This document shows positions 1-21,519 of a stretch of 22,237 bases of DNA, piece by piece. Numbering within the stretch: the stretch's first letter is position 1; the number at the start of each line of letters is the position of its first letter. The notes below the pieces were generated by a model. It made no database searches and had not been told where the DNA came from. It saw only the letters and a list, made by a program, of their open reading frames with translations. The translations under genes were made by a program, and so were the position numbers. This stretch comes from a virus: positions 1 through 22,237 of the IMG/VR virus record IMGVR_UViG_3300003324_001076. One strand, 5' to 3'.

Positions 1-31
1 GACCACGAGCTGGGGTGCTCCTCCGCTCTAG
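1..31 (+). CDS. C-terminal end of an upstream gene (partial)
   Basis: One reading frame enters from the left edge and stops at TAG 29-31, giving the tail TTSWGAPPL. The next gene starts with its own ribosome site 37 bases later. From the order of actinophage head genes the upstream gene would be the major capsid protein or a close neighbour. Nine residues cannot identify it, and the other two frames are also open here, so the frame choice rests only on the fitting stop position. Confidence 0.3.
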   Translation, partial: TTSWGAPPL

Positions 32-67
32 CATGGCAAGCGGACATCAACAGAAGGGATCGCCGTC

Positions 68-514: not shown

Positions 515-532
515 GAGGGGAGGGGAAGCGCG

Positions 533-679
533 ATGACCCTCATCCGCGTCATCCGAGAGCAGGCCGGCACGCCTGGGTGTGTGCGAGAGGTCACGCCGTC
601 TGAGGCTCGGGAGCTCATCGAGCGAGGAGACGCGGTGAGGGTCATCGTCCGCGAGAACACCGACATCGAGAGGGGTTGA
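533..679 (+). CDS. 48-aa small protein, function unknown
   Basis: A short gene with ATG at 533 and a strong ribosome site (GAGGGGAGGGGAAG) just upstream; TGA at 677-679. The protein starts MTLIRVIREQAG and contains TPSEARELIERGDAVRVI, an amphipathic helix followed by a short strand. Small proteins with a similar 'SEARxLIxxGDA' helix are common beside actinophage head genes, though I cannot name a family. It lies 18 bases after the acidic protein and 2 bases before the connector gene, so it is translated in the same operon. It is too short to assign a function, but the ribosome site, tight spacing and sensible composition support it as real. Confidence 0.65.
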   Translation: MTLIRVIREQAGTPGCVREVTPSEARELIERGDAVRVIVRENTDIERG

Positions 680-681
680 GC

Positions 682-1515: not shown

Positions 1516-1979
1516 CGCCTGGACTGCCGACCCGCGTGCCGGCCATCCTCGGCGCGATGCAGACGCTGATCTCTGACCGGCTGGAGGAACTCGGAGAGAC
1601 CGACGTCCAGGTGCTCTACGGCGAGGAGCCGGTCTCTCCGCAGCCGGAAGGCATCATGCTGGTGCCTGCCGACGCAGACACTCCTGGCGCGATGGTCACC
1701 TATGGCGCTGCGGCAGCGCTCGGCAACGCTAACACCGAACAGACCGAGTTCGCGCTGCTGCTCCGCTCCTTCAACGGCGACGGCGACATGCGGCTGGCGG
1801 TGAACCGCTGCGGCGAACTGTTCGGCATCGTCCAGGACATCGTCAACAAGAACCCGGTCCGATCCGACTGCTGGGACCGGCTCGAGATGGGTCCGAATGC
1901 CTCCTGGCATCCGTTCTTTACTGACCGCGGCGCCAACTGCTATGTGGCACTCTCTCTCGTCGCGTCGGCGCTGGTCTAA
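1512..1979 (+). CDS. Tail terminator-like protein
   Basis: The protein has 155 aa. GTG 1512 overlaps the TGA of the connector gene. The layout fits the gpU/terminator fold: a long N-terminal helix (RVPAILGAMQTLISDRLEEL), a strand (DVQVLYGEEP), and a central hairpin where the hydrophobic strand EFALLLRSFNGDGDM is followed by helix LAVNRCGELFGIVQDIVNK. It ends with the closing strand GANCYVALSLVASALV. Terminators cap the tail tube and join it to the neck. The order here (terminator before the gp10-like gene) is slightly unusual, so a head-stopper role is the main alternative. The assignment rests on pattern and neighbours, not on a conserved catalytic motif. Confidence 0.6.
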   Translation: MTPGLPTRVPAILGAMQTLISDRLEELGETDVQVLYGEEPVSPQPEGIMLVPADADTPGAMVTYGAAAALGNANTEQTEFALLLRSFNGDGDMRLAVNRCGELFGIVQDIVNKNPVRSDCWDRLEMGPNASWHPFFTDRGANCYVALSLVASALV

Positions 1980-2416
1980 TGGCTGCGCACCCGGTCGACT
2001 ACACGAGCGTTCGTCTCCTGGCGCGGCAGTTCGGGAAGGTGCCCGTCGATCTGCGGCGCGAACTGCGACCTAAGCTCCGGCAGGCCGGCGAGCATGTGCG
2101 CAGCGGCATCCGCGAGGAGGCTGCGAGGTTCTCCGACACGATCCCGCGGGCGGTGCGGATGTCCGTCTCGTTCGCAAGCAAGACCGGAGGGATCCGCATC
2201 TACGTCGACCAGAAGGCTGCTCCTGGCGCTCGCGCTCTGGAGAACCTCGGCAGGGAGGGCACCTTCCGGCACCCTGTCTTCGGTAACCGCGACGTCTGGG
2301 TGGCGCAGCCGGCTCACCCGTTCTTCTTCCGAGTCGTTCAGCGTGAGCGACCTAGAGTCCGCAAACTGGTGGAGGACGCTGTGCGTGCCTCTCTCCCGAA
2401 AGGAACCATCACATGA
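1979..2416 (+). CDS. HK97 gp10-like neck/tail-completion protein
   Basis: The protein has 145 aa. ATG 1979 overlaps the preceding TAA (TAATG). The diagnostic part is residues ~86-120: RALENLG, then FRHPVFGNRDVWVAQPAHPFFFRVV. This matches the conserved 'FRHPVFGN...W..Q.AHPFF' signature of HK97 gp10-like proteins, which act at head-tail joining or tail completion. The N-terminal half is basic and helical (VDLRRELRPKLRQAGEHV). The protein ends in a helix of charged residues. Tight overlaps on both sides place it in the connector operon. The family is well recognised by the motif, while the exact mechanical role of gp10 proteins varies between phages. Confidence 0.8.
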   Translation: MAAHPVDYTSVRLLARQFGKVPVDLRRELRPKLRQAGEHVRSGIREEAARFSDTIPRAVRMSVSFASKTGGIRIYVDQKAAPGARALENLGREGTFRHPVFGNRDVWVAQPAHPFFFRVVQRERPRVRKLVEDAVRASLPKGTIT

Positions 2417-2748
2417 CCGACGAGCAGGAGCCGCAGCTGGCAACCATTCCTCAGCCGGAGGAGGAGCCGCTGGTCTATGGCTCCGACGACACCGCGCTGG
2501 TGCGCATCTACAACGCCGAGCTCGACGCCTACGGGGAGAGCCCGCGGGCAGGCGTCAAGTACCTGCCTGGCTGGGAGATCGTGGATCCGACGCCGGAGGA
2601 GGCTGCTCGGGCCACCGACTACGACCCGAGCGCGCACAGCGCGAGCGAGGTCGTCGCGCACCTGGAGGAGGTGCCGCAGAGCGAGCGCGAGGCGATCATC
2701 GCGCTGGAGAAGGACGGTAAGAACCGCTCCACGATCGTCAAGTCCTGA
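2413..2748 (+). CDS. Small acidic tail-region protein with a C-terminal 'GKNR' helix module
   Basis: The protein has 111 aa. ATG 2413 overlaps the previous TGA. The first ~25 residues are acidic and Pro-rich. The middle (LVYGSDDTALVRIYNAELDA to VKYLPGWEIVDP) looks like a small beta unit. The end, YDPSAHSASEVVAHLE then SEREAIIALEKDGKNRSTI, is a two-helix module. Actinophage structural proteins often carry a similar module at their C-terminus (a 'DYDPSxHTVxEVxxYL... GKNRxTI' pattern). It lies just before the major tail gene. A role in tail-tube assembly or neck decoration is inferred from location; I do not know a proven function. Confidence 0.65.
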   Translation: MTDEQEPQLATIPQPEEEPLVYGSDDTALVRIYNAELDAYGESPRAGVKYLPGWEIVDPTPEEAARATDYDPSAHSASEVVAHLEEVPQSEREAIIALEKDGKNRSTIVKS

Positions 2749-2780
2749 CGCCACCCACTGAACCCGAAAGAGGTTAGAAC

Positions 2781-3263
2781 ATGGTTGCACCTGCTATCGC
2801 GGCAGCCACGCGGTACTTCCAGCCTGGGACCACGAAGGTCCTGGTGCTCCCGTCCATCGCGTCTCTCAGCGCTGGCGCCACTCGAGCCGAGATCAACGCA
2901 GGCACGGACGTCTCCGGCGACGTCGCCGGCATCAACGGCTTCCAGGTGACGAGCGGCCAGCTCGACACCCCGGATCTGGGAGGCCGGTTCACGAAGCGCG
3001 TCCCTGGCCGACTGACCGCTGACGACTCCTCGATCACCTTCTACGCCGACATCGCCGGCACCGACATCCGGACGGTCCTCAGTCGCGACCAGAACACCTA
3101 CATCGGCATCCTCGACGGCGGCGACGTCACCGGCAGGAAGGCCGACTACTTCCAGGTGACGGTCGCGGCGGTCGGCAAGGTGCGCGACATGGAAGATGCT
3201 CCGCGACTGACGGTGACGTTCACCATCCGCGACTACGGCGAGAACAAGACCGTCCCGGCGTAG
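2781..3263 (+). CDS. Major tail tube protein
   Basis: The protein has 160 aa. ATG 2781 follows AGAGGTTAGAAC, a moderate ribosome site. The fold reads as the tail-tube beta-barrel. An early strand (TTKVLVLPSI) is followed by DVSGDVAGINGFQVTSGQLDTPDLGGRFTKRVPG, the typical loop with target residues between 'V..I.G....' and the barrel. Next come DDSSITFYAD and the GRKADYFQVTVAAVGKVRD...PRLTVTFTIRDYGEN strands near the end. Known tail-tube proteins stack as hexamers around the tape measure. There is no C-terminal Ig domain, which many siphophage tube proteins have. Position directly before the chaperone/tape-measure block supports the call. The short intergenic stretch after it holds a hairpin (3267-3302). 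Confidence 0.8.
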   Translation: MVAPAIAAATRYFQPGTTKVLVLPSIASLSAGATRAEINAGTDVSGDVAGINGFQVTSGQLDTPDLGGRFTKRVPGRLTADDSSITFYADIAGTDIRTVLSRDQNTYIGILDGGDVTGRKADYFQVTVAAVGKVRDMEDAPRLTVTFTIRDYGENKTVPA

Positions 3264-3266
3264 GCC

Positions 3267-3302
3267 GGCTCCTCCCCTCCCCCACCTACTCCCTGAGGAG
3301 CC
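3267..3302 (+). promoter_or_regulatory. 8-bp hairpin covering the ribosome site of the next gene
   Basis: GGCTCCTC (3267-3274) and GAGGAGCC (3295-3302) are perfect reverse complements, with a pyrimidine-rich 20-base loop. The right arm contains GAGGAG, the Shine-Dalgarno of the gene starting at 3309. The stem would therefore hide that ribosome site. The left arm begins two codons after the stop of the highly expressed tube gene. No T-run follows, so it is not a classic terminator. It may lower expression of the downstream genes relative to the tube protein. Confidence 0.5.
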
Positions 3303-3308
3303 TGAGCA

Positions 3309-3587
3309 ATGGCCGACCTCTCCGACGCGCAGATCCGCGCGACTTCGCTGGAGTGTGCCTGTCGAGCTGTCGAACAAGGCAGCCCGACAGGCCACTTTTT
3401 GTCGTCTGCGCGCATGTTTGAAACCTACATCCGCTCTGGGCTGACGCAGACTGGGCCGCGCTTTCAGCAGGGCGTCCTGGCTGGCAGGACCGGAGCTATC
3501 GTGCGGGTCGATGGCAATCTTGGACCCGATGAGGCTACCGCGATCGTGGCAGCCGTCACCTCCCTACTGCAGAAGGACCTACCATGA
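3309..3587 (+). CDS. 92-aa unknown protein between tail tube and tail chaperone
   Basis: ATG 3309 sits eight bases after GAGGAG. The protein has a helical first half (LSDAQIRATSLECACRAVE, then SSARMFETYIRSG) and a less ordered second half ending in an amphipathic helix (GPDEATAIVAAVTSLLQKDL). It has two cysteines close together (ECAC) and no membrane segment. The stop overlaps the ATG of the tail chaperone gene, so the two are probably translationally coupled. It could be an assembly factor of the tail, judged by place alone. I do not recognise the family. The same helix-rich opening (ALRxxALxxAxxL) is seen in many small actinophage proteins of unknown role. Confidence 0.7.
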   Translation: MADLSDAQIRATSLECACRAVEQGSPTGHFLSSARMFETYIRSGLTQTGPRFQQGVLAGRTGAIVRVDGNLGPDEATAIVAAVTSLLQKDLP

Positions 3588-4135
3588 GCAATACCCGCAA
3601 GCCGCGGCTGCGCGAGGCGCTGAAGAAGCGGACCACCAAGAAGACGTTCTACGACATCCCGCAGGTCGAGCATGAGGTCGCGCAGAAGGCTGCGGAGGAC
3701 CTGGTGCTGGCGAAGAACACTGTCAGGGCAGCCCAGTTCCTGCAGGCGCGAGAGGGCAAGCGCGACGACATCGTGGAGGCTCTCGCTGCAGCTCAGCGTG
3801 AGGTCGAGGCCGCGCAGCAGAGGGTCGATGACTGCTTCTTCCGCGTCTGGTTCGTCGGCATGCGGGAGGACAACTTCGACGCTCTCGTCAACGCGCACCC
3901 TCCGACGGATGAGCAGCGCGAGCAGGCGCGCAAAGCCGGCGAGGAGGAGCCGATCTGGAACGAGGACGTTCTGCCCTTCGAGTTGCTGGAGCACTGCGCG
4001 CAGGAGAGCGACCTGACGGCTGAGCAGTGGCGCGAGGAGATCGAGGGCTGGACTCGAGCGGAGAAGGCAGAGATCCTCTCCCGCGTGCTCGACTGTAACG
4101 TCCGGTCGTTCCGGGCGTCGCTGTCTTTCGACTGA
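3584..4135 (+). CDS. Tail assembly chaperone, short form (gpG-like)
   Basis: The protein has 183 aa. ATG 3584 overlaps the stop of the preceding gene. A basic N-terminus (KPRLREALKKRTTKK) is followed by a long helical region (VEHEVAQKAAEDL to AQQRVDDCFFRVWFVGMREDNFDALVNAHPPTDEQREQARKAGEEEPIWNEDVL, seen at residues ~28-135). The 'FDALVNAHPPTDEQ...WN.D..P.ELL..C' block is a hallmark of actinophage tail chaperones. By analogy with lambda G, the protein binds the tape measure during tail assembly. It sits directly before the tape-measure gene, as expected. Its last codons hold the frameshift site that makes the long form. Confidence 0.85.
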   Translation: MSNTRKPRLREALKKRTTKKTFYDIPQVEHEVAQKAAEDLVLAKNTVRAAQFLQAREGKRDDIVEALAAAQREVEAAQQRVDDCFFRVWFVGMREDNFDALVNAHPPTDEQREQARKAGEEEPIWNEDVLPFELLEHCAQESDLTAEQWREEIEGWTRAEKAEILSRVLDCNVRSFRASLSFD

Positions 4136-4446
4136 GGCAGGACGCAGGGTATCGCGCGTCCGTCGCGGCAGCACGCGATCACCACCTGCCTCACTCGGAG
4201 TTCCTCGCCTGGGACCCCGACGACCGCGACGCACAGTGGGCTCTCGCTGACTATGAGAGTGAGGAGTGCTCTGAGTGCGGAGTCCATCCGAGCAGGTGGG
4301 ACCGCAAGTTCGGAGGGCACCCGAACGCAGTTGTTCCCGAGTGGAGGTTCTGCCGCGTCTGCGAGCTCATCGCTCAGGCCGTCAAGGCTGGGCCACCAAG
4401 CGACAGCGGAGGCTGGCATCTAACGCTGAAACACCAGACGATCTGA
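3584..4446 (+). CDS. Tail assembly chaperone, -1 frameshift fusion (gpGT-like)
   Basis: If the ribosome slips back one base on T-TTC (4126-4129), reading continues from CGA 4129 to TGA 4444-4446. The result is a 287-aa product: 182 residues of the short form plus 105 new ones. The new part begins RLRQDAGYRASVAAARDHHL and continues PHSEFLAWDPDDRDAQWALA, a sequence pattern conserved in the T-part of actinophage chaperones. It carries two CxxC pairs (C229/C232 and C257/C260), a probable zinc ribbon. The new frame has a stop at 4096-4098, so the slip must occur between about 4099 and 4135. No start codon with a ribosome site is seen for the extension alone. Confidence 0.8.
4124..4132 (+). promoter_or_regulatory. 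Putative -1 ribosomal frameshift site
   Basis: The zero-frame codons are TCT TTC GAC TGA. The Phe tRNA on TTC can re-pair with TTT one base back (4126-4128), and the next codon becomes CGA. This is a non-canonical single-codon slip, not an ideal X-XXY-YYZ heptamer. It is preferred because it is the only run allowing good re-pairing inside the window limited by the new-frame stop at 4096 and the old-frame stop at 4133. Confidence 0.55.
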
Positions 4447-4455
4447 GGAGGCTCT

Positions 4456-7400
4456 GTGCTGGGTTCTAACAGCACCAACCTCGAAGTGCGCGTCGACGGC
4501 AAGGTCGACCGCTACGAGGCTGCCATGCGGCGTGCTGAGCGCGCGACGCTGCGCACAGAGCGCACCTTGAAGTCTCTCGATGACCAGATGCTGAAACTTG
4601 AGCGGGAGATGAACGACGAGGCGACTCGGCGCATCGACGCTCGGAACGCAGCCTTTGACCGGATGGGCCGCGGCGCTGTCATTGCGGGAACAGCACTACT
4701 GACTGGTGCTGCTCTCTCTGCGCGAGCAGCGGTCAAGTGGGAGAGTGACTGGGCTGGTGTTGAGAAGACCGTCGACGGCTCTCAGAAGCAGATGGAGGGA
4801 CTGGAGGCTGGGCTGAGGAACCTGGCCCGGACGTTGCCGGCCTCCCACCATGAGATCGCTGCGGTCGCGGAGGCTGCTGGCCAGCTCGGCGTCCAGCGTG
4901 ACGACATTGTCGACTTCACCAAGGTCATGATTGACATGGGGGAGACGACGAACCTGTCGGCAGATGAGGCGTCGACTGCGCTCGCCCGGTTCATGAATAT
5001 CATGGGAACCGCTGCCGACGACGTCGACCGGCTGGGCGCAACCATTGTCGACCTGGGCAACAAGGGAGCGAGCACCGAAGCCGAGATCGTGGCGATGGGT
5101 CTGCGCATCGCTGGCGCCGGCAACCAGATTGGGCTGAGCGAGGCTCAGGTCCTCGCCTTCGCTAACGCGCTCTCCTCGCTGGGCGTCGAGGCTGAGGCTG
5201 GCGGCTCCTCCATCTCCACCATCTTCCTGAAGGCTCAGGCAGACGTCGACTCTGCCTCTGGCCCGATGCTGGCGAAGATGTCGGAGGTCGCCGGCATGTC
5301 CCGGAAGACGTTCTCCGACCTGTGGAACCGGGACTCGGCTGCAGCGTTCGTCAAGGTCGTCTCTGGGCTGCAGAACATCGACGCTAGCGGCGGGTCCGTG
5401 ATCACCACGCTGAACGGCATGGGCATCACTGAGATCCGGCAGCGCGACGCGATGCTGCGGCTCGTCGGGGGTGGCGACCTGCTCCGCAAGAGCCTCCGGG
5501 ACGGCAACACGGCCTGGCAGCAGAACAGCGCGCTCATCGCAGAGGCCACTAAGCGCTACGACACGACCGAGTCTAAGTTGCAGGTGGCCCGCAACCAGAT
5601 CAACGACACCGCCATCACCATCGGAGAAACCTTCCTGCCGGTCCTGGGCGACCTCGCTGGGCAGCTCGGGACCGTCAACAACTTCTTCACTGGGCTACCT
5701 GGACCAGTCAAGAGCCTCATCGGGCCGGTGGCTGCGCTCGCTGGGGTCATCGCACTGGTTGGTGGAGCGATGCTCATCGCGGTGCCGAAGATCGCTGCGT
5801 TCAACGCTGCCCTCTCCTCCGGCAACCTGCCGACGAACATTCAGCGCACCGGCAAGGCAGCGCAGGGGCTCGCCTCCTTCCTGACTGGCCCGTGGGGCGT
5901 TGCCCTGGCTATCGGCACCGTCGCAATCGGTGGGCTCGCTGCGGGAGCGCAGGAGGCTCGAGACTCGGTGCGCCGGCTGCAGGAGACGCTCTCAGATGAC
6001 AGCGGCGAGGCGACTCAGGAGACTCTGGACCAGATCCTCGCAACCCTGCAGGACAAGGGCTGGGACGACTTCGCCCGCGACATTGGGCTGAACATGGAAG
6101 ACGTCGCGCGGGCCGTCCTCTACGGCGGCGACGCGATGGACCAACTCATCGACAAGGTGCGTGAGCATGAGGGTGAGCTAGGGCCGTGGGCTCGGCTGCA
6201 GGAGACAGCGACCGGCGACCATGAGCAGTTCATCCGCACCATCCAGTCGGAGAACAAGGCTCTCGGAGGCGCGAAGGTCAACCTGAAGGAGTCGAAGGAC
6301 GCGCAGCAGGATCTCGGGCTGGCAGCGAAGGGAGCGACCCCTCAGGTTGCTGGCATGACGGAGGAGCTGGAGGACCAGAAGACTGCAGCCGAGCAACTGC
6401 AGGAAGCCATCGAGGGACTCAACTCCGCGATCCTGGGTGGCCGCGCGGGTGCCCGCGATTACCAGCAGACGCTCGATGAGGCCGACAAGACGCTGCGGCG
6501 AGGCAAAAGGACGCTGGACATCCACACGAAGGCTGGCCGCGACAATCAGGCTGCGCTCGACTCCATCGCAGACAGCACGATCGCGTGGAGCGACAAGTTG
6601 AAGGAGGTCGACGCGTCTGGCCGGCGCTCCTTCAAGGTGATGCAGCAGGGCAGGAAGGATCTGTTCGAGGCCGCACGCACATTCGGCATGACTCGGCAGG
6701 AGGCTCGCAAGTACGTCGATGAGGTACTGCGGATTCCGAGCGAGTGGAAGACCAAGTTCGACACCCCGAACCTCCCTAAGAGCAAGGGAGATGTCCGCAA
6801 CTGGCGCGAACTGCTCGACAAGGTGCCGAAGCATACGGACACGAAGGCCAACTTCGACGGACGCAAGGCTGCCCGCGATGCTGCTCAGGCCGCGGCGGAC
6901 ATTGCGCGCGCGCTCTCCGGCATCCCTGATGAGCCGGTCAACATCAAGCTCACGGCGCAGGCTCGCAAGGTGCAGAGGCAACTGGGCGACATGAACTTCT
7001 GGGAGGGTGGCCCGGTCTACGGAGCAGGCACGGGGACGTCGGACTCGATCGCTGCGAGGCTCTCCAACGGCGAGCATGTCGTCACCGCGGAGGAGGTGCG
7101 GAAGGCTGGCGGGCATCGCGTGGTCGAGGCGTTCCGGCGAGCAGCGAAGCGAGGGGAGTTGCCGCGCATCGGGGAGTTGCCAGCGTTCGCAGACGGTGGT
7201 GCTGTCAACATCAACCCTTCTGCCCGCGAACTCGGCGTGCTGGCCGCTACGGGCGCGCTGGAGCAGATAATCCAGTCGGTGGCTGCAGGCATCTCTGCGC
7301 AGCTCTCAGCGAAGGCGAGCAAGGCGTTCACGGAGGCTCCCATCGGAGGCATGCTGGGGTTCGCGGGGAACCTGACGCCAGCTCAGTTGGTGCGAGGGCA

Positions 7401-8451
7401 GCAGTTCGCGCGAGCGCAGGTAGGGAAGCCTTACATCTGGGGTGGGGTCGGCCCACGCGGGTATGACTGCTCGGGAGCGGTCTCGGCTGTCACGCGGGCA
7501 GCGCTGGGCCAGCAGCCCTATGTGCGCATGGGGTCGACAGGCACGATGCCGTGGCCTGGCTGGGGAATGGGCTACGGCAAGCTCTCCGCGGGCTGGTTCA
7601 CCGGCTCCCCTGGCCACACCGCCGGCAACATCGGAGGACTGCCGTTTGAGAGCGCAGGAGGCGTCGGCTTCCGCGTCGGAGGCTCAGCCACCTCCGTTGG
7701 GTCGTTCCCTCGCCACATGCATCTGGGCATCCACGACGAGGGTGGGTGGCTGCGGCCTGGCGACCTCGCGCTGAACAAGAGCGGCAAGCCGGAGCCGGTC
7801 TTCTCCTCCGCTCAGTGGGACAAGCTCGGGAAGCTCATCGAGAAGATGGAGGAGACCCACGGCAAGAACAGCCCTCTGGTGGTGGCTGCGAAGGAGTTGC
7901 GAAAGGACCTGTCGCAACGTGCCACGGAGGGGCGCCGGCTGCTGACTGAGTTGGCGAATGTCAGGTCCTCGAGTCGCGAACTCGGCAGGACCGCTGCGCA
8001 GCCGTTCCTGGGCAACTCGAACCTGTTTGAGGGTGGTGCTGCTGGGGCACGGACGCTGCTGCAGGCTCAGGCCAACGATGCACGCCGGCAGAGGAATGCG
8101 CTGCGGGAGGCGAGAGCGAAGGGGCTGTCGCGCGGCCTCTACAACCAGCTGGTGGCAGCCGGCAACTACGGCGTCTCGCAGGAGTTCGCACACATGAGCG
8201 GGCGTGAGATCCGGCAGTTCAACCAACTCTACGCGGCGAGGGGAGTGCAGGCGGCTAGGCTCTCTCGCTCGGTGGGGCGCATCGATCAGAGCCATGTGCG
8301 GGAACTGCGACAGGAGATCAACCGGCTGGAGCGAGGCATCAACCGCATGGCCGACAAGCTGGAGAGCGCCGTGGAGCGGGGGAGTGAGAGAGGGACTCGG
8401 AGGGGTGCCGGCGACGCTGGCCGTAGGACCAACGTAAGGAAGCGATCATGA
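4456..8451 (+). CDS. Tape measure protein with embedded NlpC/P60-type domain
   Basis: The protein has 1331 aa. GTG 4456 follows AGGAGG. Residues ~10-70 form a coiled coil. The conserved TMP core (KWESDWAGVEKTVDGS, then AAGQLGVQRDDIVDFTKVMIDMGETTNLS) follows at ~90-170. Hydrophobic segments lie near residues 72-92, 420-445 and 478-498, and the last two are likely membrane-insertion helices. Residues ~975-1095 resemble an NlpC/P60 peptidase: the GKPYIWGG...GYDCSG motif with Cys1005, and His1054 in SPGHTAGN. Long helical repeats and a basic tail complete it. Tape measures set tail length at roughly 0.15 nm per residue, which suggests a tail of about 200 nm. The peptidase may open the cell wall at injection. 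Its TGA overlaps the next ATG. Confidence 0.9.
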   Translation: MLGSNSTNLEVRVDGKVDRYEAAMRRAERATLRTERTLKSLDDQMLKLEREMNDEATRRIDARNAAFDRMGRGAVIAGTALLTGAALSARAAVKWESDWAGVEKTVDGSQKQMEGLEAGLRNLARTLPASHHEIAAVAEAAGQLGVQRDDIVDFTKVMIDMGETTNLSADEASTALARFMNIMGTAADDVDRLGATIVDLGNKGASTEAEIVAMGLRIAGAGNQIGLSEAQVLAFANALSSLGVEAEAGGSSISTIFLKAQADVDSASGPMLAKMSEVAGMSRKTFSDLWNRDSAAAFVKVVSGLQNIDASGGSVITTLNGMGITEIRQRDAMLRLVGGGDLLRKSLRDGNTAWQQNSALIAEATKRYDTTESKLQVARNQINDTAITIGETFLPVLGDLAGQLGTVNNFFTGLPGPVKSLIGPVAALAGVIALVGGAMLIAVPKIAAFNAALSSGNLPTNIQRTGKAAQGLASFLTGPWGVALAIGTVAIGGLAAGAQEARDSVRRLQETLSDDSGEATQETLDQILATLQDKGWDDFARDIGLNMEDVARAVLYGGDAMDQLIDKVREHEGELGPWARLQETATGDHEQFIRTIQSENKALGGAKVNLKESKDAQQDLGLAAKGATPQVAGMTEELEDQKTAAEQLQEAIEGLNSAILGGRAGARDYQQTLDEADKTLRRGKRTLDIHTKAGRDNQAALDSIADSTIAWSDKLKEVDASGRRSFKVMQQGRKDLFEAARTFGMTRQEARKYVDEVLRIPSEWKTKFDTPNLPKSKGDVRNWRELLDKVPKHTDTKANFDGRKAARDAAQAAADIARALSGIPDEPVNIKLTAQARKVQRQLGDMNFWEGGPVYGAGTGTSDSIAARLSNGEHVVTAEEVRKAGGHRVVEAFRRAAKRGELPRIGELPAFADGGAVNINPSARELGVLAATGALEQIIQSVAAGISAQLSAKASKAFTEAPIGGMLGFAGNLTPAQLVRGQQFARAQVGKPYIWGGVGPRGYDCSGAVSAVTRAALGQQPYVRMGSTGTMPWPGWGMGYGKLSAGWFTGSPGHTAGNIGGLPFESAGGVGFRVGGSATSVGSFPRHMHLGIHDEGGWLRPGDLALNKSGKPEPVFSSAQWDKLGKLIEKMEETHGKNSPLVVAAKELRKDLSQRATEGRRLLTELANVRSSSRELGRTAAQPFLGNSNLFEGGAAGARTLLQAQANDARRQRNALREARAKGLSRGLYNQLVAAGNYGVSQEFAHMSGREIRQFNQLYAARGVQAARLSRSVGRIDQSHVRELRQEINRLERGINRMADKLESAVERGSERGTRRGAGDAGRRTNVRKRS

Positions 8452-9878
8452 GCGCATACACCTGCCGGTTCGTCAACGACATCTCGAGCCTGCCTGTCGT
8501 CTCGCTCGACCTAAACTCGGGTGCGACCTGGCAGCAGCCTGGCTCCATCCAGGTAGACGGTGACGGCTTCGACCCTGGCTGGCCGGAGCTTAAACGCTCC
8601 ATCGCGGAGAACATGCTGGGCGACGGCGACCGGGTCGCGTCGGAGTCCTATGGCAACCGGACGCTGCGCGTGCCTCTGTTCCTGTTCGGCTCTCCCTCGC
8701 AGGCCGCTAGCTCGCTGAACAAGATCATCCGACAGTTGGACAAGCCGCGGAACATCCTGCAATGGGAGAGCGACGACCCTCTCGACCAACCGGTCTTCTT
8801 CCGGACGTTCCGCTCCTCCATCGCTGAGGGCGACATCCGCGACGTCGGCTCAGGCTTGACGCGCGTGACGCTCTCGATCCTGGCTGAGCCGTTCGCGCTC
8901 GGGCTGCCGGAAATCTGGAGCGACTCGTGGACAAACGACGGGCTGAACCTGTTCCGTGCGCTGCCGACGATCAAAGGTGACGTCGCTGCTCCTCTGCGGG
9001 TCTTCTTCAAGCAGCAGGCGAGCGGAGCAGCAGCCCGCATCTTCAACGGCACCGCTCTCCTCTGGAGCTTCGCAGCCACCTATCTTGCCGGCAACCTGCT
9101 CGCTGAGTTCGGACAGCAGACCTCCATCGCCAACGACACCACGCAGGTGACGGCAGACGCGACGGCGACGAACTCTAACCACTGGCGCATCTCGTTTGCG
9201 ACCTTCGCGACGGACGCCTACCGCATTCAGATTACGACGAACCCGATCCCGCGAGGCTCCTACCGCATCCTGGCGCGCATCCGCGGCAACACGGCAGGCA
9301 ACGCGTTCACAATGCAGCTCAAGACAGGCACCACTGCCCTCGCAGCTATTGGGCCGCAGGTCGCCTACACGGCCGTCAACCCTATCGGGTGGGATTGGGT
9401 CGATCTCGGCATCATCGAGAACCCTGCGTTCGGCTCTGTCCCTGAGCAGGAGCGCGACTATCTGCCGCGGGACCTCGCGCTCAACTTCCTGTTCTCTGCA
9501 GCACGCACCTCAGGCACCGGTTCCTTGGACGTCGACTGCTTCGTCGCGCTACCCATCGAAACCATCGACTCGCAGCCGGCTCGCACGGCCTTCATCAAGA
9601 TGCCCGACGACTCGCTCGGCTCCACCGACGGGCTGGTAGTCGACACCGACTCGGACAGCGCACGCATGATTGCCAGCATGAACGGCAACCTGACGCCGAC
9701 GAGCAAGGGACCGGAGATCGCCGGAGGGCTGCCACAGGTCTGGCCTGGGCTGAGCAACATGCTCTACATCCTGCCGCTGTTCCAGCAGGTCGCAGCGAAA
9801 GACGACAAGACCCGAACGACGCTAGCCGACTTCTTCTACTACCCTCGCTACCTGCTGCTGAGAGGGGTTGGGGTATGA
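8448..9878 (+). CDS. Minor tail protein, Dit-like (distal tail)
   Basis: The protein has 476 aa; the start overlaps the tape-measure stop (ATGA). The N-terminal ~150 residues fit a distal-tail domain: GDRVASESYGNRTLRVPLFLFG, then a helix (SSLNKIIRQLDKPRNILQW), then the closing strands GLTRVTLSILAEPFALG. Residues ~200-330 look like a beta jelly-roll (NHWRISFATF, RGSYRILARIRGNTAGNAFTMQL, WDWVDLGII), which may bind carbohydrate. The C-terminal part returns to the tail-associated scaffold and ends LYILPLFQQVAAKD...YYPRYLLLRG. Dit rings join the tube to the tail tip. The jelly-roll insertion is inferred from strand pattern only. The gene overlaps the next minor tail gene by four bases. Confidence 0.75.
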   Translation: MSAYTCRFVNDISSLPVVSLDLNSGATWQQPGSIQVDGDGFDPGWPELKRSIAENMLGDGDRVASESYGNRTLRVPLFLFGSPSQAASSLNKIIRQLDKPRNILQWESDDPLDQPVFFRTFRSSIAEGDIRDVGSGLTRVTLSILAEPFALGLPEIWSDSWTNDGLNLFRALPTIKGDVAAPLRVFFKQQASGAAARIFNGTALLWSFAATYLAGNLLAEFGQQTSIANDTTQVTADATATNSNHWRISFATFATDAYRIQITTNPIPRGSYRILARIRGNTAGNAFTMQLKTGTTALAAIGPQVAYTAVNPIGWDWVDLGIIENPAFGSVPEQERDYLPRDLALNFLFSAARTSGTGSLDVDCFVALPIETIDSQPARTAFIKMPDDSLGSTDGLVVDTDSDSARMIASMNGNLTPTSKGPEIAGGLPQVWPGLSNMLYILPLFQQVAAKDDKTRTTLADFFYYPRYLLLRGVGV

Positions 9879-11515
9879 GCAGCGTCCCTCTGCAGGTACG
9901 GCTCGGTTCGAAACTCATTACGCGGCAGCTCTCCGACCTGTCGTTCCGCAAAACCATCCCTGGAGGGTATGCATCTGCTGGCTTCCAACTCCACGACTCC
10001 ATTGCTCGCAGCCGGCCAGATCGCGAGATGCTCACCGACGTCGCCATCTCAGACACGCGGCACGGTCGCGTCTGCTGGCAGGGAGTGTTGGAGGATCCTG
10101 GCCGCTCCTCCGCTGCAGACGGCGAGACCTGGGACATGGTCGCGATTGGGCCGAGCGGCCATGCGAACGAGCGGAACGTGCCCGCCGTGTATGTCGACCG
10201 GCAACTGGACCACTGGGTACCTATCGACCGCGGCGGTGGAACGTCGGGAGGCAATCAGGCGACCGGAGAGCAAGCCGGCGTCCCTGGTGGCGGCACAACC
10301 ACAGGGCAGGATGCGCAGCAGGCTCTCGTCTTCACCTTCCCGCAGGGCATGGCGCTAGCAACGAACGCCCGCGCTCCTCTCGGCTACCGAGCTCTAGCCG
10401 ACTCAGGGCAGAGGCTCGGCGGCATCCAAATCCAGTGGCTCGCAGGACTCATCAGTACCAGCCTGTCAATGCAAATCGTGACCGGCCAGACAAACGGCTC
10501 AGGCAGGGCTGCAGCCCGTTCCGTCAACGCATCCACCACAGACCAGCAACTCACCGCCCAACACACGACGGACTTCCCTTTAGGCAACACTATCCCAGAA
10601 CTGCGGTTCATCTGGACAGCAGCAGGCACGACGGTCCCTGCTGCCACCCACTGGGCGGCAGCTCGCGACGTCTGGGTGCGTGCGATCCTCCTCAACAAGA
10701 GCGGCGTCGACCTGACTGGAGCCTACGCAAACGGCTACGTCACCAACGCGCTGGTGGTGGGGGACCTGCTCGGCAGGCTCCTCACCCGCTTCGATGGCCC
10801 GAACGCAGTCATCGACTCGAGCTCGACGTTCCAGATTGAGCAGATGCAGTATGTCGACGGCGCTTCTGCTCGGCAGATCTTCGATGACCTCATGGCGCTG
10901 GACTCAGACTTCTTCTGGGCTGCTTGGGAGGGCACGCCGGCGCGGTTCGAGTGGAGCAAGTGGCCGACCGCCGTCCGCTATGAGTTCAAGGCTGAGGACG
11001 GCTTCTCGAGCCCGCAGAGCAGCAGCGAAATCTACAACCGCGCTCCCGTCCGTTGGAGAGATGCCCGCGGCGAGACGCGCAGCTGGACGGTCTCCAACGC
11101 TGTGCCTGCCCTCGACTCCCGCGGCATCATTCGCGAGGCTCCAGTCATCGATCTGGGAGACGAGATCGGGTCGCGCGCCATGGCCATCCAGGTGGGGAAT
11201 GAGTTCCTCCGCACGCATGCCTACCCGACGAACGCCGGTACCATCCAGGTCAGCCGGCCAGTGCGGAACCTGCTGACTGGGCAGCGCGTCTGGCCGCATG
11301 AGATCGACCCCGGCTGCCTTGTTCGCGTCCGTGGAGTCGAAGGTTCTCCCTCAGCGCTGAACCTCTCGACAGAGGACGGCGTCAACGTTTTTCGCATGGT
11401 CGCTACCGACTATCGGGCCAGCGAGAATGCGGTCACTTGCGAGCTCTCGTCTCCTGCTCGCACGCAAGAGGAGATCATCGCTCGGATAGCCGAGCAGAGG
11501 AGGAGGAAGAGGTGA
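9875..11515 (+). CDS. Minor tail protein, tail-tip hub/Tal-like
   Basis: The protein has 546 aa; ATG 9875 overlaps the preceding TGA. The first ~110 residues are a compact beta domain (LSDLSFRKTIPGGYASAGFQLHD, GRVCWQGVLEDPGR) seen at the start of hub-type minor tail proteins. Residues ~120-270 are Gly/Thr/Gln-rich and then form a sandwich-like insertion (GIQIQWLAGLISTSLSMQIV to DVWVRAILLNKSG). The last third resumes the hub scaffold: SARQIFDDLMALDSDFFWAAWEG, TRSWTVSNAVPALDSRG, GCLVRVRGVEGSPSALN. Such proteins form the tail tip and contact the host surface. The exact class (gp27-like hub or adhesion carrier) cannot be settled from sequence alone. Its stop overlaps the next gene as GTGA. Confidence 0.75.
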   Translation: MSSVPLQVRLGSKLITRQLSDLSFRKTIPGGYASAGFQLHDSIARSRPDREMLTDVAISDTRHGRVCWQGVLEDPGRSSAADGETWDMVAIGPSGHANERNVPAVYVDRQLDHWVPIDRGGGTSGGNQATGEQAGVPGGGTTTGQDAQQALVFTFPQGMALATNARAPLGYRALADSGQRLGGIQIQWLAGLISTSLSMQIVTGQTNGSGRAAARSVNASTTDQQLTAQHTTDFPLGNTIPELRFIWTAAGTTVPAATHWAAARDVWVRAILLNKSGVDLTGAYANGYVTNALVVGDLLGRLLTRFDGPNAVIDSSSTFQIEQMQYVDGASARQIFDDLMALDSDFFWAAWEGTPARFEWSKWPTAVRYEFKAEDGFSSPQSSSEIYNRAPVRWRDARGETRSWTVSNAVPALDSRGIIREAPVIDLGDEIGSRAMAIQVGNEFLRTHAYPTNAGTIQVSRPVRNLLTGQRVWPHEIDPGCLVRVRGVEGSPSALNLSTEDGVNVFRMVATDYRASENAVTCELSSPARTQEEIIARIAEQRRRKR

Positions 11516-14758: not shown

Positions 14759-15196
14759 TCAGGAGATGGGCTGGTCCTCCCTGATCTCTGGCTTGCCTCC
14801 GTAGTCGCCTGAGGCGATGTCGTCGCGGAGCCGCGCAGCATGCCCTTCGCAGTAGAGGTGGAGCAGCAGCCCGCAACGCTCTTCGCGCTCTCCCGCATAG
14901 CGGTCGTAGTGCGCGCACTCCTCCTCGAAGAGCAGGATGCGGTGCGCGATGGGTTCGCGGCAGGTCTCCGTCACGATGCCGTCTCCGAAGCCGTAGGCTG
15001 CTCCCATGTCAGGATGGATGGCCTCGTAGGTGCAGTGCGGGCGGCTGGCGAACTCGAGCGCAGTGGGGAGGGTTTCGGCTTGCATGGCGAGCAGGTTGGG
15101 TTCCTGCTCCTCGCGGACGGTGAAGGCGGTGCCTCCCTGCTCGCTCTCCATGTGGGCTCGAAGCGTCGGTAGAGTTGTGGGGTTGCTGATGGTCAT
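14759..15196 (-). CDS. Cys-rich unknown protein, leftward
   Basis: The protein has 145 aa. The ATG at 15196 (minus strand) has the strong ribosome site GAGGAGG about nine bases upstream. It has five cysteines (55, 79, 94, 108, 116) and several histidines in the second half: RPHCTYEAIHPD, VTETCREPIAHR, EEECAHYDRY, EERCGLLLHLYCEGH. This suggests metal binding or disulfides, but no standard finger spacing fits. The N-terminal third is polar (TISNPTTLPTLRAHMESEQG). No membrane segment is seen. It runs against the tail operon and lies downstream of the leader element at 15285-15347, so that element probably drives it. I do not recognise the family. Confidence 0.7.
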   Translation of the reverse strand: MTISNPTTLPTLRAHMESEQGGTAFTVREEQEPNLLAMQAETLPTALEFASRPHCTYEAIHPDMGAAYGFGDGIVTETCREPIAHRILLFEEECAHYDRYAGEREERCGLLLHLYCEGHAARLRDDIASGDYGGKPEIREDQPIS

Positions 15197-15284
15197 GGTG
15201 GGTTGCCTCCTCAGGCGAGCAGAGCGGCAGCGATGGCCGCGGAGGTGACGGTGTCCTGCTGGTCTCAGGAGCTGGCTGCTCCCT

Positions 15285-15347
15285 CATGGCTACAGCCTCC
15301 CGTATGCAAGAGGCTTGCGCAAGGCTCTTGCAGAAACATGCAAGGGG
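15285..15347 (-). promoter_or_regulatory. Leftward 5' leader/operator, copy B
   Basis: On the minus strand this block reads through to GAGGCTGTAGCCATG, whose ATG is at 15287. It aligns without gaps to the block at 17626-17688; I count about 48 of 63 positions identical. It holds several CTTGCR/YGCAAG half-sites: TGCAAG 15305-15310 (within the less conserved part), CTTGCG 15314-15319, CGCAAG 15318-15323, CTTGCA 15327-15332, TGCAAG 15339-15344. The last two form a perfect CTTGCA-N6-TGCAAG palindrome. It lies between the PLP enzyme gene's stop and the gene 14759-15196. The 88 bases from 15197 to 15284 hold only a possible decayed small ORF. Confidence 0.6.
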
Positions 15348-15368: not shown

Positions 15369-16154
15369 TCATACAAGATTCTCCCGACGTCCAACCACCC
15401 AGAGCGCATCCCCCACAGAGAGGAACGGCAGACACTTCGCCTCATAGATCGGGTCGAGCTCCAGATCGCCTAGCGTCGTCTTCGCTGCCCTCTCATGGTA
15501 GTCGAGGCCGGCAGGCACAAGCTCGCACTGCAGCCGCCAGAACGCCGGAGCATACCGGTCGAGCCGGCGCGTCGGATCGGCTCCCACAACCACGCCGAGC
15601 ACGGAGAGGTCGCAGCATGGCCTCTCATACCGGTCGAGGCCAGTCAAGATGCCTGCCAGACTCATCCCCGACCCGACGGGGACGACGATCCTCGAGACGC
15701 CGGCAGCGCGCAGCCCGTGGATGTCGAGCTCGCGCACCTGCGCAGAGGTCTGCCTGACTGCCTCCTCGCACTCCATCCCGAAGGGGATCTCGACCCACCC
15801 GAGATCGGCTGCAGCTCTCCTCGCGCGAGCGACAATGACGGAGTTGTGGCCTGGCCTATGCGGAACGATGCGTGCACCACGGTCGCGGGCAGCGGCCAGC
15901 TCGGGCGTCTCCTGCCCTGCAGGAACATGTACCTCGCAGGGCAGCCCTAGGTGTTCTGCGATGGTGGCGACGATGTTGACCTGTGGGCTCTGCCGGCTGC
16001 CAGCGGTCACGAGGCCGCGGACGCCTGGCTGTTGGGCGAGCGCGAGGCAGGTCCGGACCTTGCCTCCGCGGCTGCCCGCGACCTCGAATAGGTCTTCCCG
16101 TTTCACCCACGTGCCTGCCTTCTGCTGCCACGGGGTTCTAGTCTGGGGGATCAT
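15369..16154 (-). CDS. PLP-dependent enzyme, tryptophan-synthase-beta/ACC-deaminase-like
   Basis: The protein has 261 aa. ATG 16154 is preferred over an in-frame TTG at 16199, which would overlap the endolysin start. Fold-type II PLP marks are clear. WVKREDLF is followed by GSRGGKVRT, with Lys32 as likely Schiff-base residue. TAGSRQSPQVN (50-60) sits where the family has its substrate-carboxylate loop (TxGxxxSxHxN). VPVGSGMSLAG (158-168) fits the phosphate-binding loop. Known relatives (ACC deaminase, D-cysteine desulfhydrase, threonine synthase) act on small amino acids, and they are usually 300-340 aa, so this one is short. Related enzymes occur in actinophages without a settled role. Lying opposite the lysis genes, it may be accessory cargo; substrate unknown. 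Confidence 0.8.
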   Translation of the reverse strand: MIPQTRTPWQQKAGTWVKREDLFEVAGSRGGKVRTCLALAQQPGVRGLVTAGSRQSPQVNIVATIAEHLGLPCEVHVPAGQETPELAAARDRGARIVPHRPGHNSVIVARARRAAADLGWVEIPFGMECEEAVRQTSAQVRELDIHGLRAAGVSRIVVPVGSGMSLAGILTGLDRYERPCCDLSVLGVVVGADPTRRLDRYAPAFWRLQCELVPAGLDYHERAAKTTLGDLELDPIYEAKCLPFLSVGDALWVVGRRENLV

Positions 16155-16161
16155 GCGCAAG

Positions 16162-16167
16162 ACGTTA
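16162..16167 (-). promoter_or_regulatory. Putative -10 box for a leaderless PLP-enzyme mRNA
   Basis: On the minus strand TAACGT (fits TAnnnT) ends seven bases before the ATG at 16154, so transcription would begin at or next to the start codon. No Shine-Dalgarno precedes that ATG. Leaderless transcripts are common in actinobacteria. No convincing -35 is seen. The 44-base divergent gap (16155-16198) also holds the ribosome site AGAGGAG of the endolysin gene. Confidence 0.4.
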
Positions 16168-17226: not shown

Positions 17227-17267
17227 GAGAGCCCTCCACCCCGGTTGCCGGGGGGTGGAGGGCTCTC
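17227..17267 (+). terminator. Strong intrinsic terminator after the lysis cassette
   Basis: A perfect 16-bp inverted repeat: GAGAGCCCTCCACCCC (17227-17242) pairs with 17252-17267. The nine-base loop (GGTTGCCGG) can itself form a tiny GG/CC stem. The right arm is followed by TCTGCTTGTGT, a weak T-rich stretch. It lies between the rightward holin gene and the leftward 64-aa gene ending at 17276, so it may act in both directions. Confidence 0.85.
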
Positions 17268-17275
17268 TGCTTGTG

Positions 17276-17470
17276 TCAGCGGTTGAACCAGGAGTATGGG
17301 AACTTGATGCCAGCTATGGCTGCCTGCCGGTGGATGCTGCGCAGCATGAGGTGGCAGGCGATGTCTCTGCGCATCTCTTGACTCCAACGAGGCGCCGTTG
17401 AGAGAGCGAGGCTGGCCTCTATTGCCTCTCGCCTGAGGCGCGCTATCTGCTGCTCCTGCTGTGGCGTCAT
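17276..17470 (-). CDS. 64-aa unknown protein, leftward
   Basis: The ATG at 17470 overlaps the TGA of the 53-aa gene upstream (ATGA), so they are translationally coupled. The reading frame is open further upstream, but that part is the antisense of the 53-aa gene's frame and reads as low-complexity His/Arg/Gln. The protein is helical and basic (TPQQEQQIARLRREAIEASL, then SQEMRRDIACHLMLRSIHRQ), ending AGIKFPYSWFNR with an aromatic cluster. It has no membrane segment. Size and charge would suit a small DNA-, RNA- or protein-binding modulator, which is a guess. I do not recognise the family. Confidence 0.55.
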   Translation of the reverse strand: MTPQQEQQIARLRREAIEASLALSTAPRWSQEMRRDIACHLMLRSIHRQAAIAGIKFPYSWFNR

Positions 17471-17628
17471 CGGGTGATCCGGATGTGCCAGAAGGAGAGA
17501 GCCTGCTCGACCTCGCTGTTGCTGCTCTCGTCGCTGACCTGGATGTCGATGTTGCCGGCGAGGTAGTGGTCGGTGGCGAGGTCGAGTGCCTCGTCGCGGG
17601 TCATGAGCTGGGTGGGCTTGTGCGTCAT
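17467..17628 (-). CDS. 53-aa unknown protein, leftward
   Basis: This small gene was found by reading the minus strand by hand. ATG 17628 is preceded by GAGGCTGTAGCC, and TGA is at 17467-17469. The protein starts MTHKPTQLMTRDEALDLATD, continues HYLAGNIDIQVSDESSNSEV and ends QALSFWHIRITR. It looks like a helix followed by beta strands, well mixed in composition as real proteins are. It is the first gene of a two-gene leftward unit driven from the shared leader (17626-17688). No named family is recognised. The start is supported by the leader shared with the ATG at 15287. Confidence 0.65.
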   Translation of the reverse strand: MTHKPTQLMTRDEALDLATDHYLAGNIDIQVSDESSNSEVEQALSFWHIRITR

Positions 17629-17688
17629 GGCTACAGCCTCGCGCAGCCTGCTCGCCTGCGCAAGCCGCTTGCATAAACCTGCAAAGGG
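17626..17688 (-). promoter_or_regulatory. Leftward 5' leader/operator, copy A
   Basis: This is the partner of the block at 15285-15347, ending in the same GAGGCTGTAGCCATG. The distance from GTTT to ATG is 53 bases in both. It contains YGCGCAAG at 17657-17664 and the near-palindrome CTTGCA-TAAACC-TGCAAA at 17668-17685. With the extra copy at 17696-17717 it fills most of the 110-base divergent gap between the 53-aa gene and the HTH gene. The rest of that gap holds nothing else I can support. Confidence 0.6.
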
Positions 17689-17717
17689 AGTGCTGAAGCG
17701 GCTTGCATAAACCTGCA
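17662..17717. repeat. Two direct copies of a 22-base operator-like repeat
   Basis: AAGCCGCTTGCATAAACCTG (start of copy 17662-17683) recurs at 17696-17717 with one mismatch in 22 and a start-to-start distance of 34 bases, about three helical turns. Each copy contains the dyad TTGCA-N6-TGCA. The pair lies in the divergent gap, and the second copy overlaps the putative -35 of the HTH operon. Confidence 0.75.
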
Positions 17718-17732
17718 GCGCAGTCCTAGCCT
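17703..17732 (+). promoter_or_regulatory. Putative promoter of the HTH/methyltransferase operon
   Basis: TTGCAT (17703-17708) and TAGCCT (17727-17732) are 18 bases apart. The -10 fits the actinobacterial TAnnnT pattern and ends six bases before ATG 17739, so the mRNA could be leaderless; no Shine-Dalgarno precedes that ATG. The -35 matches only TTG and lies inside the second operator copy, so a bound regulator would block or aid the polymerase. Confidence 0.45.
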
Positions 17733-17738
17733 GAGAAC

Positions 17739-17945
17739 ATGGCGATGACGAAGACTCCTCTCTACCTCCTGTTGGAGACCAAGCTCGGGCGAGACCCCGC
17801 GCTGGACATGCGGGAGCGGCGAGAGCGCGGCGAGACCTGGCGCAGCATCTCGCATGCGTACCTGCAGTTCGGCATCGACGTGACTGAGGTCACGCTGCGT
17901 GCCTGGCTGAAGGATGCGACCGCGCCGACCGCAGCGGCTCAGTAG
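17739..17945 (+). CDS. Small helix-turn-helix DNA-binding protein
   Basis: The protein has 68 aa. It opens MAMTKTPLYLLLETKLGRDP, followed by RERRERGETWRSISHAYLQF and GIDVTEVTLRAWLKD. The second part has the HTH rhythm: helix, turn at GETW, helix RSISHAYLQ, turn GIDVT and recognition helix EVTLRAWL. Small proteins of the form 'PLYxLLExKLG...WRxIAxxLxxxTGxxVSxExLRxWF' are frequent in Streptomyces and other actinophages and are annotated as HTH proteins. It is first in the rightward operon, directly behind the operator repeats, so it is the natural candidate for binding them. That link is inference. Confidence 0.75.
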   Translation: MAMTKTPLYLLLETKLGRDPALDMRERRERGETWRSISHAYLQFGIDVTEVTLRAWLKDATAPTAAAQ

Positions 17946-20294: not shown

Positions 20295-20423
20295 TTGACG
20301 AGCGACTGCGGGCATCATTGCGGCGTCAAGGACGGCATCGTTGGCCATTGTGGCTGCAGAGAGTGCCATGGTAGCCGGCTGAGCAACGAGGTGGAGAGGG
20401 ATTACGGGCATGACGGACCCTGA
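20295..20423 (+). CDS. Possible 42-aa Cys/His-rich protein
   Basis: Between the WhiB and methyltransferase genes one frame reads (from TTG 20295) LTSDCGHHCGVKDGIVGHCG, then CRECHGSRLSNEVERDYGHD, then GP and TGA 20421-20423. The cysteines and histidines (C-x3-C, then HCxCxxCH) look like a zinc-binding knot, similar to small actinophage proteins with 'HCxxCHRTF'. The start is uncertain: TTG 20262 after GAGAGGAG is an alternative inside the WhiB gene. The end overlaps the next gene by 14 bases. If it is not coding, the 122-base gap holds nothing else I see. Confidence 0.4.
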   Translation: MTSDCGHHCGVKDGIVGHCGCRECHGSRLSNEVERDYGHDGP

Positions 20424-21519
20424 CGTGCTCGGCGAGGGAGCGCTGTTCGACATCGAGCTCCCTCCTCCGGTCTCGCTGGCAGACCGGTTCGGGGTGCCTC
20501 CGTTCTCGGTGCTGGACAGACGGTCGGGCCACTGGCAGGAGAGGCGCGCACGCTGGCTGTCGCTGGGCATCGAGAGCGAGCTGGGGCGTGCGAACGACCT
20601 GCTGAGCGGCAAGAACTGTGCCTATGGGTCGCGGACGATCTTGCGCGATGAGGAGGGGACGCTGGTCTATGCCGGCAAGCGCGTCGAGCAGGAGCCGAGC
20701 GGCCAGCTGGGCACCCCGCAGATCAGGCAGAACCACTACGCGTATGGGGCGAAGGCGATCACGAACGCCGACGGCAAACTGGAGTATGAGGTCTCGCAGG
20801 GAGCGACGAGCGTCTTTGACCCGGTGCTCGCTGAGCTCGCCTACCGCTGGTATACGGCGCCTGGACAACGGATCCTCGACCCCTTTGCGGGAGGCTCCGT
20901 CCGCGGCGTCGTGGCGGCTACGCTGCAGCGCCACTATCTGGGCGTCGATCTGAGGCCGGAGCAGATCGAGGCGAACCGGCTGCAGGGCAGGCAGATCCTC
21001 GACGGGTCGCGGTTCATGCCGAAGTGGGTGGCCGGCGACTCCTCTGAGGTGCTGGCTCGCGCTCCCTCCAACTCCGTCGACTTTGTCTGGTCTTGCCCTC
21101 CATATGCGGACCTGGAGGTCTACTCAAACGACCCGCGGGATCTCTCGACGATGGAGTACCAGGATTTCCTTGCAGCGCACGACGACATCGTCTTCAAGGC
21201 TGCGCGAGCGCTGAAGCCTGACCGGTTCGCGGCCTGGGTCATCTCCGACGTCCGCGACCGCAACGGCATCTATCGGGGGCTGGAGCATGACGCTGTCCGA
21301 TCGTTCCAGAAGGCCGGGCTGCACTTCTACAACGATGCAATCATTCTGGACCCGGTGGGGTCGGCTGCGGTGCGAGCTGCTCGTATCTTCCTTGGAGGTC
21401 GCAAGCTGACCCGCATGCATCAGCACTTGCTCATCTTTGTCAAGGGAGATCCGAAGCGTGCGACGCAGGCTATCTCCAGCGGCGAGCAGATCGTACCAAC
21501 AGGAGAGGACCAGTCGTGA
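20410..21519 (+). CDS. DNA amino-methyltransferase (N6-adenine or N4-cytosine)
   Basis: The protein has 369 aa; ATG 20410 follows GGAGAGGGATTACGGGC. SAM-binding motif I is ILDPFAGGS (155-163), followed by HYLGVDLRPEQIEAN with the acidic Asp180. The catalytic motif IV is SCPPY (228-232). An N-terminal extension (~20-130) has PFSVLDRRSGHWQERRARWL and paired GxxxAYG blocks; it is typical of phage-borne enzymes of this type and probably contacts DNA. FDPVLAELAYRWYTAPG (136-152) is the usual lead-in. Motif order I then IV without a large insert speaks for the gamma class. With the C5 enzyme it would give the phage two DNA marks. Target base and site cannot be read from sequence. Confidence 0.8.
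   Translation: MTDPDVLGEGALFDIELPPPVSLADRFGVPPFSVLDRRSGHWQERRARWLSLGIESELGRANDLLSGKNCAYGSRTILRDEEGTLVYAGKRVEQEPSGQLGTPQIRQNHYAYGAKAITNADGKLEYEVSQGATSVFDPVLAELAYRWYTAPGQRILDPFAGGSVRGVVAATLQRHYLGVDLRPEQIEANRLQGRQILDGSRFMPKWVAGDSSEVLARAPSNSVDFVWSCPPYADLEVYSNDPRDLSTMEYQDFLAAHDDIVFKAARALKPDRFAAWVISDVRDRNGIYRGLEHDAVRSFQKAGLHFYNDAIILDPVGSAAVRAARIFLGGRKLTRMHQHLLIFVKGDPKRATQAISSGEQIVPTGEDQS

Follow-up and report, generated by a model that had tools for sequence, protein, structure and literature searches.

A repeated, palindrome-bearing leader before leftward genes of an uncultivated phage as a putative set of operators

Introduction

Why would a virus carry two similar 63-base leaders in front of two groups of leftward genes, and what would they do there? 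The question arises in the IMG/VR virus record IMGVR_UViG_3300003324_001076, of which positions 1 to 22,237 were analysed (22,237 nucleotides; hereafter the window). We infer an actinobacterial host from a WhiB match, a GC content of about 0.66 and tape-measure matches that include actinobacteriophages among others. Since 2011, several unrelated clusters of actinobacteriophages have been described with start-associated repeats, and to our knowledge nobody has shown what binds them. The leader described here would add an example of this type of phage gene switch, which is known but little understood. It also offers a compact test case: three exact 13-bp palindromes are spread over two leaders, one of which adjoins a small gene.

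Results

Two similar leaders in one window

The similarity of the two leaders is real and no chance match. Both are intergenic, lie on the same strand and stand upstream of leftward genes: leader A (17626-17688, minus strand) lies upstream of the gene at 17467-17628 and includes its start codon, and leader B (15285-15347, minus strand) is found 22 bp downstream of the stop of a gene for a PLP-dependent enzyme (PALP). Aligned without gaps, A and B are identical at 48 of 63 positions, bearing out the likeness of two gene-start regions claimed in an earlier, sequence-only reading of this DNA. For comparison, the best match to leader A in 60 windows simulated with a first-order Markov model (one strand) was 35/63, and the next-best real match in the window, outside both leaders, was 34. 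An independent repeat search of the window also ranked the A/B pair first (74 nt, 74%). Additionally, we compared upstream regions containing a Shine-Dalgarno (SD) site across 238 loci, namely 237 fetched loci and this window, each at least 6 kb long. The best pair from this window matched at 45/60 and ranked sixth among the 238, while the typical best pair per locus was 30/60.

Conserved blocks and palindromes

The identity between A and B comes in blocks. The upper dyad (TTTGCAGGTTTATGCAAG / CTTGCATGTTTCTGCAAG) matches at 15/18 positions and the 3-bp spacer beneath it at 1/3, followed by the CTTGCGCA block at 8/8 and a 16-bp stretch that, at 6/16, is about at chance level. The leaders then end in GAGGCTGTAGCCATG, which is GAGGCTGTAGCC plus ATG and is identical at 15/15. 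As previously proposed, this 3' end is the same in both leaders, and the exact 15-mer occurs at just these two sites, with no other copy in the window. The start-associated blocks themselves, GAGGCTGTAGCC abutting ATG in each case, agree at 12/12 (block A, 17629-17640; block B, 15288-15299; both on the minus strand). GAGGCTGTAGCC combines a Shine-Dalgarno GAGG, an 8-nt spacer and the imperfect palindrome GGCT-GT-AGCC.

Among the symmetric units, the 13-bp palindrome GCAAGNNNCTTGC stands out most sharply from background. Three exact copies are present in 22 kb, all within the leaders: copy A1, a putative operator, at 17660-17672, and copies B1 (15319-15331) and B2 (15306-15318), which abut each other. 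Outside the leaders no copy with 0 or 1 mismatch was found anywhere in the window, and 40 simulated windows gave 0.0 exact copies and 1.0 copies with up to one mismatch per window. The two abutting 13-mers of B make up a composite 28-bp palindrome (15305-15332) that is symmetric at 26/28 positions and is not kept in A, where the figure is 12/28. The upper dyad, CTTGCA-N6-TGCAAG, has perfect arms in B (15327-15344) and one arm mismatch in A (17668-17685). A third, partial upper dyad, A' (17702-17719), had gone unlisted in the sequence-only reading; it is a direct copy located 34 bp from the dyad of A and overlaps the putative -35 of a divergent promoter. The palindromic half-sites proposed earlier hold as GCAAGNNNCTTGC and as the dyad CTTGCA-N6-TGCAAG, but not as the loose pattern CTTGC-N8-TGCAA, which occurs at chance frequency (22 matches in the window against 16.9 expected).

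The suggestion that the leader itself is what has been kept agrees with this anatomy, in which symmetric blocks at fixed spacing resemble putative operators for one DNA-binding protein. In our preferred reading, to which we give a probability of about 0.6, such a protein, of phage or host origin, would recognise the GCAAGNNNCTTGC palindromes together with the overlapping upper dyads. Once bound, it would control transcription of leftward accessory genes, and we infer repression rather than activation. The attached, fixed ribosome-binding block GAGGCTGTAGCC-ATG at the end of the leader would set the start of translation.

Genes and promoters at leader A

Leader A is predicted to drive a 53-aa gene (17467-17628, minus strand). 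The coding signal of this gene is strong (+0.57 per codon), and its product has no Pfam, PHROGs or NCBIfam match and a structure prediction of low confidence. The second gene of operon A (64 aa; 17276-17470, minus strand) has a start that overlaps the stop of the first gene, and its coding signal is weak (+0.05). The repeat search also identified a perfect 16-bp hairpin between convergent genes (17227-17267), which probably ends both the leftward operon A and the rightward gene at 17006.

A divergent 68-aa gene adjoins leader A (17739-17945, plus strand), and its product had been put forward as the regulator. A four-helix model compatible with HTH speaks for this proposal, while a Foldseek search returned no match at E <= 0.001; the AlphaFold pLDDT, from single sequence, was 82.8 in the best of five models and 48-68 in the others. 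We consider this product a candidate only for the regulator of the palindromes.

A sigma-70 promoter scan found no site, and neither leader A nor leader B contains a leftward promoter that is sigma-70-like or of the TANNNT type, TANNNT being the -10 motif of mycobacterial promoters (PMC3898074). This motif is rare in the window (0.00135 per position) and lies within 30 bp of the gene start in just 3 of 29 genes. In two of these three it sits 6 or 7 bp before the ATG without a ribosome site. Gene 17739 has the putative leaderless promoter TTGCAT - 18 bp - TAGCCT, 6 bp, ATG (17703-17732, plus strand), and the PLP-enzyme gene has TAACGT 7 bp before its ATG. Both genes are probably leaderless, judging by these motifs, with TANNNT-to-ATG stretches at 17727-17738 (plus strand) and 16155-16167 (minus strand). 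At A the genes on either side of the sites diverge, and one site covers part of the -35 of gene 17739, so that a single bound protein could set both directions there.

Genes at leader B and passive duplication

The open frame that begins at B's ATG (15009-15287, minus strand) has a coding signal of -0.52 per codon and is probably not a gene. Further downstream, a 145-aa gene (14759-15196, minus strand) shows a coding signal of +0.22 and has its own SD, GAGGAGG. The gene served by B is probably this one, starting 91 nt after B's ATG, at 15196, and B might act on it through a long or partly translated leader. Products downstream of A and B match no known family. The sequence-only reading had held that the leader is kept while the proteins behind it are unrelated; the conservation of the leader stands, but the comparison of proteins after the ATGs is invalid for B because its frame lacks a coding signal. 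Within the 91 nt between B's ATG and gene 15196 (15197-15287, minus strand) a coding-like signal switches frame, which may reflect either a decayed short gene, a sequence error or simply a long leader. Several observations stand against the operator reading: only two leaders are visible, neither contains a recognised leftward promoter, B's ATG opens no convincing gene, the candidate regulator has no significant fold match, and the searches described below turned up no relative with this leader.

The same region bears on a rival account, in which the leader and first codons were copied once by recombination and are now decaying, leaving the second copy without a regulatory role. The lack of coding signal in B's frame and the coding-like signal that changes frame within 91 nt would both fit a decaying copy. 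The repeat also runs slightly beyond the ATG (74 nt), where a gapped local alignment reaches a score of 50, compared with 46 at the 95th percentile of shuffles, although this score is still within the shuffle maximum of 57. Decay should moreover be even, whereas the symmetric and start blocks are identical at 15/18, 8/8 and 15/15 and the sequence between at 6/16. B also possesses a second exact palindrome without counterpart in A, which creates the 28-mer with 26/28 symmetry. We therefore find passive duplication unlikely.

Viral contigs contain 65 relatives of the PLP-enzyme gene upstream of leader B (15369-16154, minus strand; PF00291, E 2.4e-12). Of these 65, 57 are accompanied by a homologue of the methyltransferase-like protein encoded at 20410-21519 (plus strand), and in 54 the two genes lie no more than 1.5 kb apart, nearly always on the same strand. 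Here they are 4.2 kb apart and on opposite strands. Together they appear to form a conserved phage module of two genes, which may serve to modify DNA bases.

Translation, recombination and replication

A different explanation would locate the function of the leader in translation. GAGGCTGTAGCC-ATG would then serve specifically to signal initiation, either recognised by a factor of the phage or acting as a small hairpin that hides the ribosome site, and expression would depend on GCTGTAGCC, beyond GAGG. By this account GAGGCTGTAGCC is the sole fully identical block, and it directly adjoins the start codon; a 3-bp stem of -3.6 kcal/mol is possible within GGC-TGTA-GCC, and the Cluster K SAS has been discussed in such terms (PMC3203893). 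This role leaves the palindromes 20-60 bp upstream unexplained, however, and the frame after B's ATG is probably not a gene. The hairpin is weak, and the whole leaders fold as RNA no better than shuffled sequences (z -0.65 and -0.87), for which reason we favour DNA sites over RNA structure. An Rfam search gave no match. Overall, a dedicated translation signal appears improbable.

The dyads might instead be bound by recombination, partition or replication proteins and not serve gene control. Palindromes that recur, with direct copies at a distance of 34 bp, do in general form resemble iterons or arm-type sites. Against this, the sites occur nowhere but just ahead of two groups of leftward genes, attached to a ribosome-binding block, and the window genes searched included no recognisable integrase or partition gene. 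This makes such a function very improbable for the dyads.

Search for further sites and relatives

The sequence-only reading had anticipated a larger multi-operator regulon, with further sites in the rest of the genome and in related phages. The 22-kb window does not bear this out, showing two leaders plus the partial third dyad inside A's intergenic region, and no more sites were found in the 17-kb contig L143 or in related phages. L143 was the only near-identical contig, and we take it to be the same phage because it is 99.99% identical over window positions 1-10448; its sequence stops short of the leaders, and no GGCTGTAGCC within one mismatch is present in its 17 kb.

Leader DNA gave nothing significant against 50,697 phage records. 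Several of the other searches for relatives were exact-pattern scans. The exact 15-mer GAGGCTGTAGCCATG had 45 matches in viral contigs, none with palindromes upstream when inspected. A search with TTGCANGTTTNTGCAAG returned 95 stretches, including a single set of leaders related to one another, from phages unrelated to this one; since the pattern itself was the query, these matches were treated as chance sharing of the core. The loose pattern TGCAAG-N15-45-GGCTGTAGCC, run against viral and genome contigs, produced no leader among the matches listed, and a search with TGCAAGNGSCTTGCGCARG gave two matches, neither beside a start-associated block. Relatives of the tail protein, methyltransferase-like and amidase genes were likewise not found with the leader.

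Discussion

The operator reading could be extended to the whole region. One phage protein would then act through the palindromes on leader B and on the divergent pair at A at once, bringing accessory genes of both strands near the PLP-enzyme and methyltransferase genes under joint control, with GAGGCTGTAGCC as a second, translational layer. We consider this extension distinctly unlikely, and we know of no phage in which a two-layer switch of this type, transcriptional and translational, has as yet been proven.

Other repeated leaders resemble this one in kind. A phage that also has a PLP-enzyme gene (L411, IMGVR_UViG_3300039210_000318) carries a leader of ~70 bp before eight different small genes (leader region, L411 4-95; further example span, L411:725-4760). 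Its 20-bp palindrome, ATACCGNNRCGTNNCGGTAT, has about two dozen sites in the 73-kb record G002, in which a reversed-pattern control gave no match. Similar to the leader described here, that of L411 bears palindromes and is repeated before small genes; it differs in its unrelated sequence (ATACCGNNRCGTNNCGGTAT, a second palindrome and GAAAGG) and in its many more copies. We count this second phage, like the named precedents below, in favour of the operator reading, and it suggests that leaders of this sort are common in uncultivated phages too. A core, GCTTGCAAGTTTNTGCAAG, belongs to a leader common to more than 20 viral contigs with a GC content of about 0.56 (L049, L052, L055, L058, L071, L081 and L091 among them), where it precedes several different genes and likely represents another start-associated leader family. 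Lastly, a phage with a GC content of 0.31 (L396) has similar start regions (41/60) at ~11930 (plus strand) and 10534 (minus strand), before apparently different genes, and the pair retains CCAACTGCTCTAA and GGAGNCAATCAGCTATG.

Among characterized systems, Cluster K phages (TM4, Anaya, Pixie, Adephagia) have an ESAS inverted repeat upstream of an SAS at the gene start (PMC3203893, PMC11373665), and the ESAS is now proposed to contain an operator together with a SigA-like promoter (PMC11373665). The likeness lies in a short conserved block placed where the ribosome binds ahead of some of the non-structural genes, with inverted repeats just upstream, in intergenic DNA. Specifically, the block conserved beyond the Shine-Dalgarno core near the ATG is present here (12/12, the ATG at B being doubtful), and inverted repeats lie upstream of the start block in both leaders. 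The block itself is GGGATAGGAGCCC in Cluster K, 3-7 bp from the ATG, whereas here it is GAGGCTGTAGCC, touching the ATG; compared with the 13-bp SAS consensus of PMC3203893, GAGGCTGTAGCC did not match GGGATAGGAGCCC as a ribosome site with up to two mismatches. The inverted repeats of Cluster K have 17 bp arms and a 4-13 bp spacer, in contrast to the 13-bp palindromes and 18-bp dyad found here, and its genomes contain 11-19 SAS each, compared with two leaders in a 22-kb fragment. The SigA-like promoter of the Adephagia ESAS was not found, as neither leader has leftward SigA-like hexamers 17-18 bp apart.

The Microbacterium phages of Cluster EF (AnnaSerena) also have SAS/ESAS, in ten copies (PMC7302621). 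The shared features are a conserved ribosome-site block tied to a motif upstream of it and an actinobacteriophage as carrier; the sequences in Cluster EF, GGGAAAGGACCCC and an ESAS centred on GTAGAG, are different. In Microbacterium Cluster EG (Hyperion), 18-bp inverted repeats, GATCAACCNNGGTTGATC, precede leftward genes (PMC7302621). Here the likeness is that palindromes stand 14-22 bp ahead of leftward start codons, in short stretches between genes; the EG repeats differ in sequence and length, occur in 8-10 copies and have no conserved ribosome block described. Because sequences and copy numbers differ, the leader does not belong to the Cluster K, EF or EG families and, as far as sequence comparison can place it, would be a new example of the same kind outside the named SAS, ESAS and EG families. 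By analogy, the best reading is that it works like the ESAS/SAS of Clusters K and EF and like the inverted repeats that Cluster EG phages carry at gene starts.
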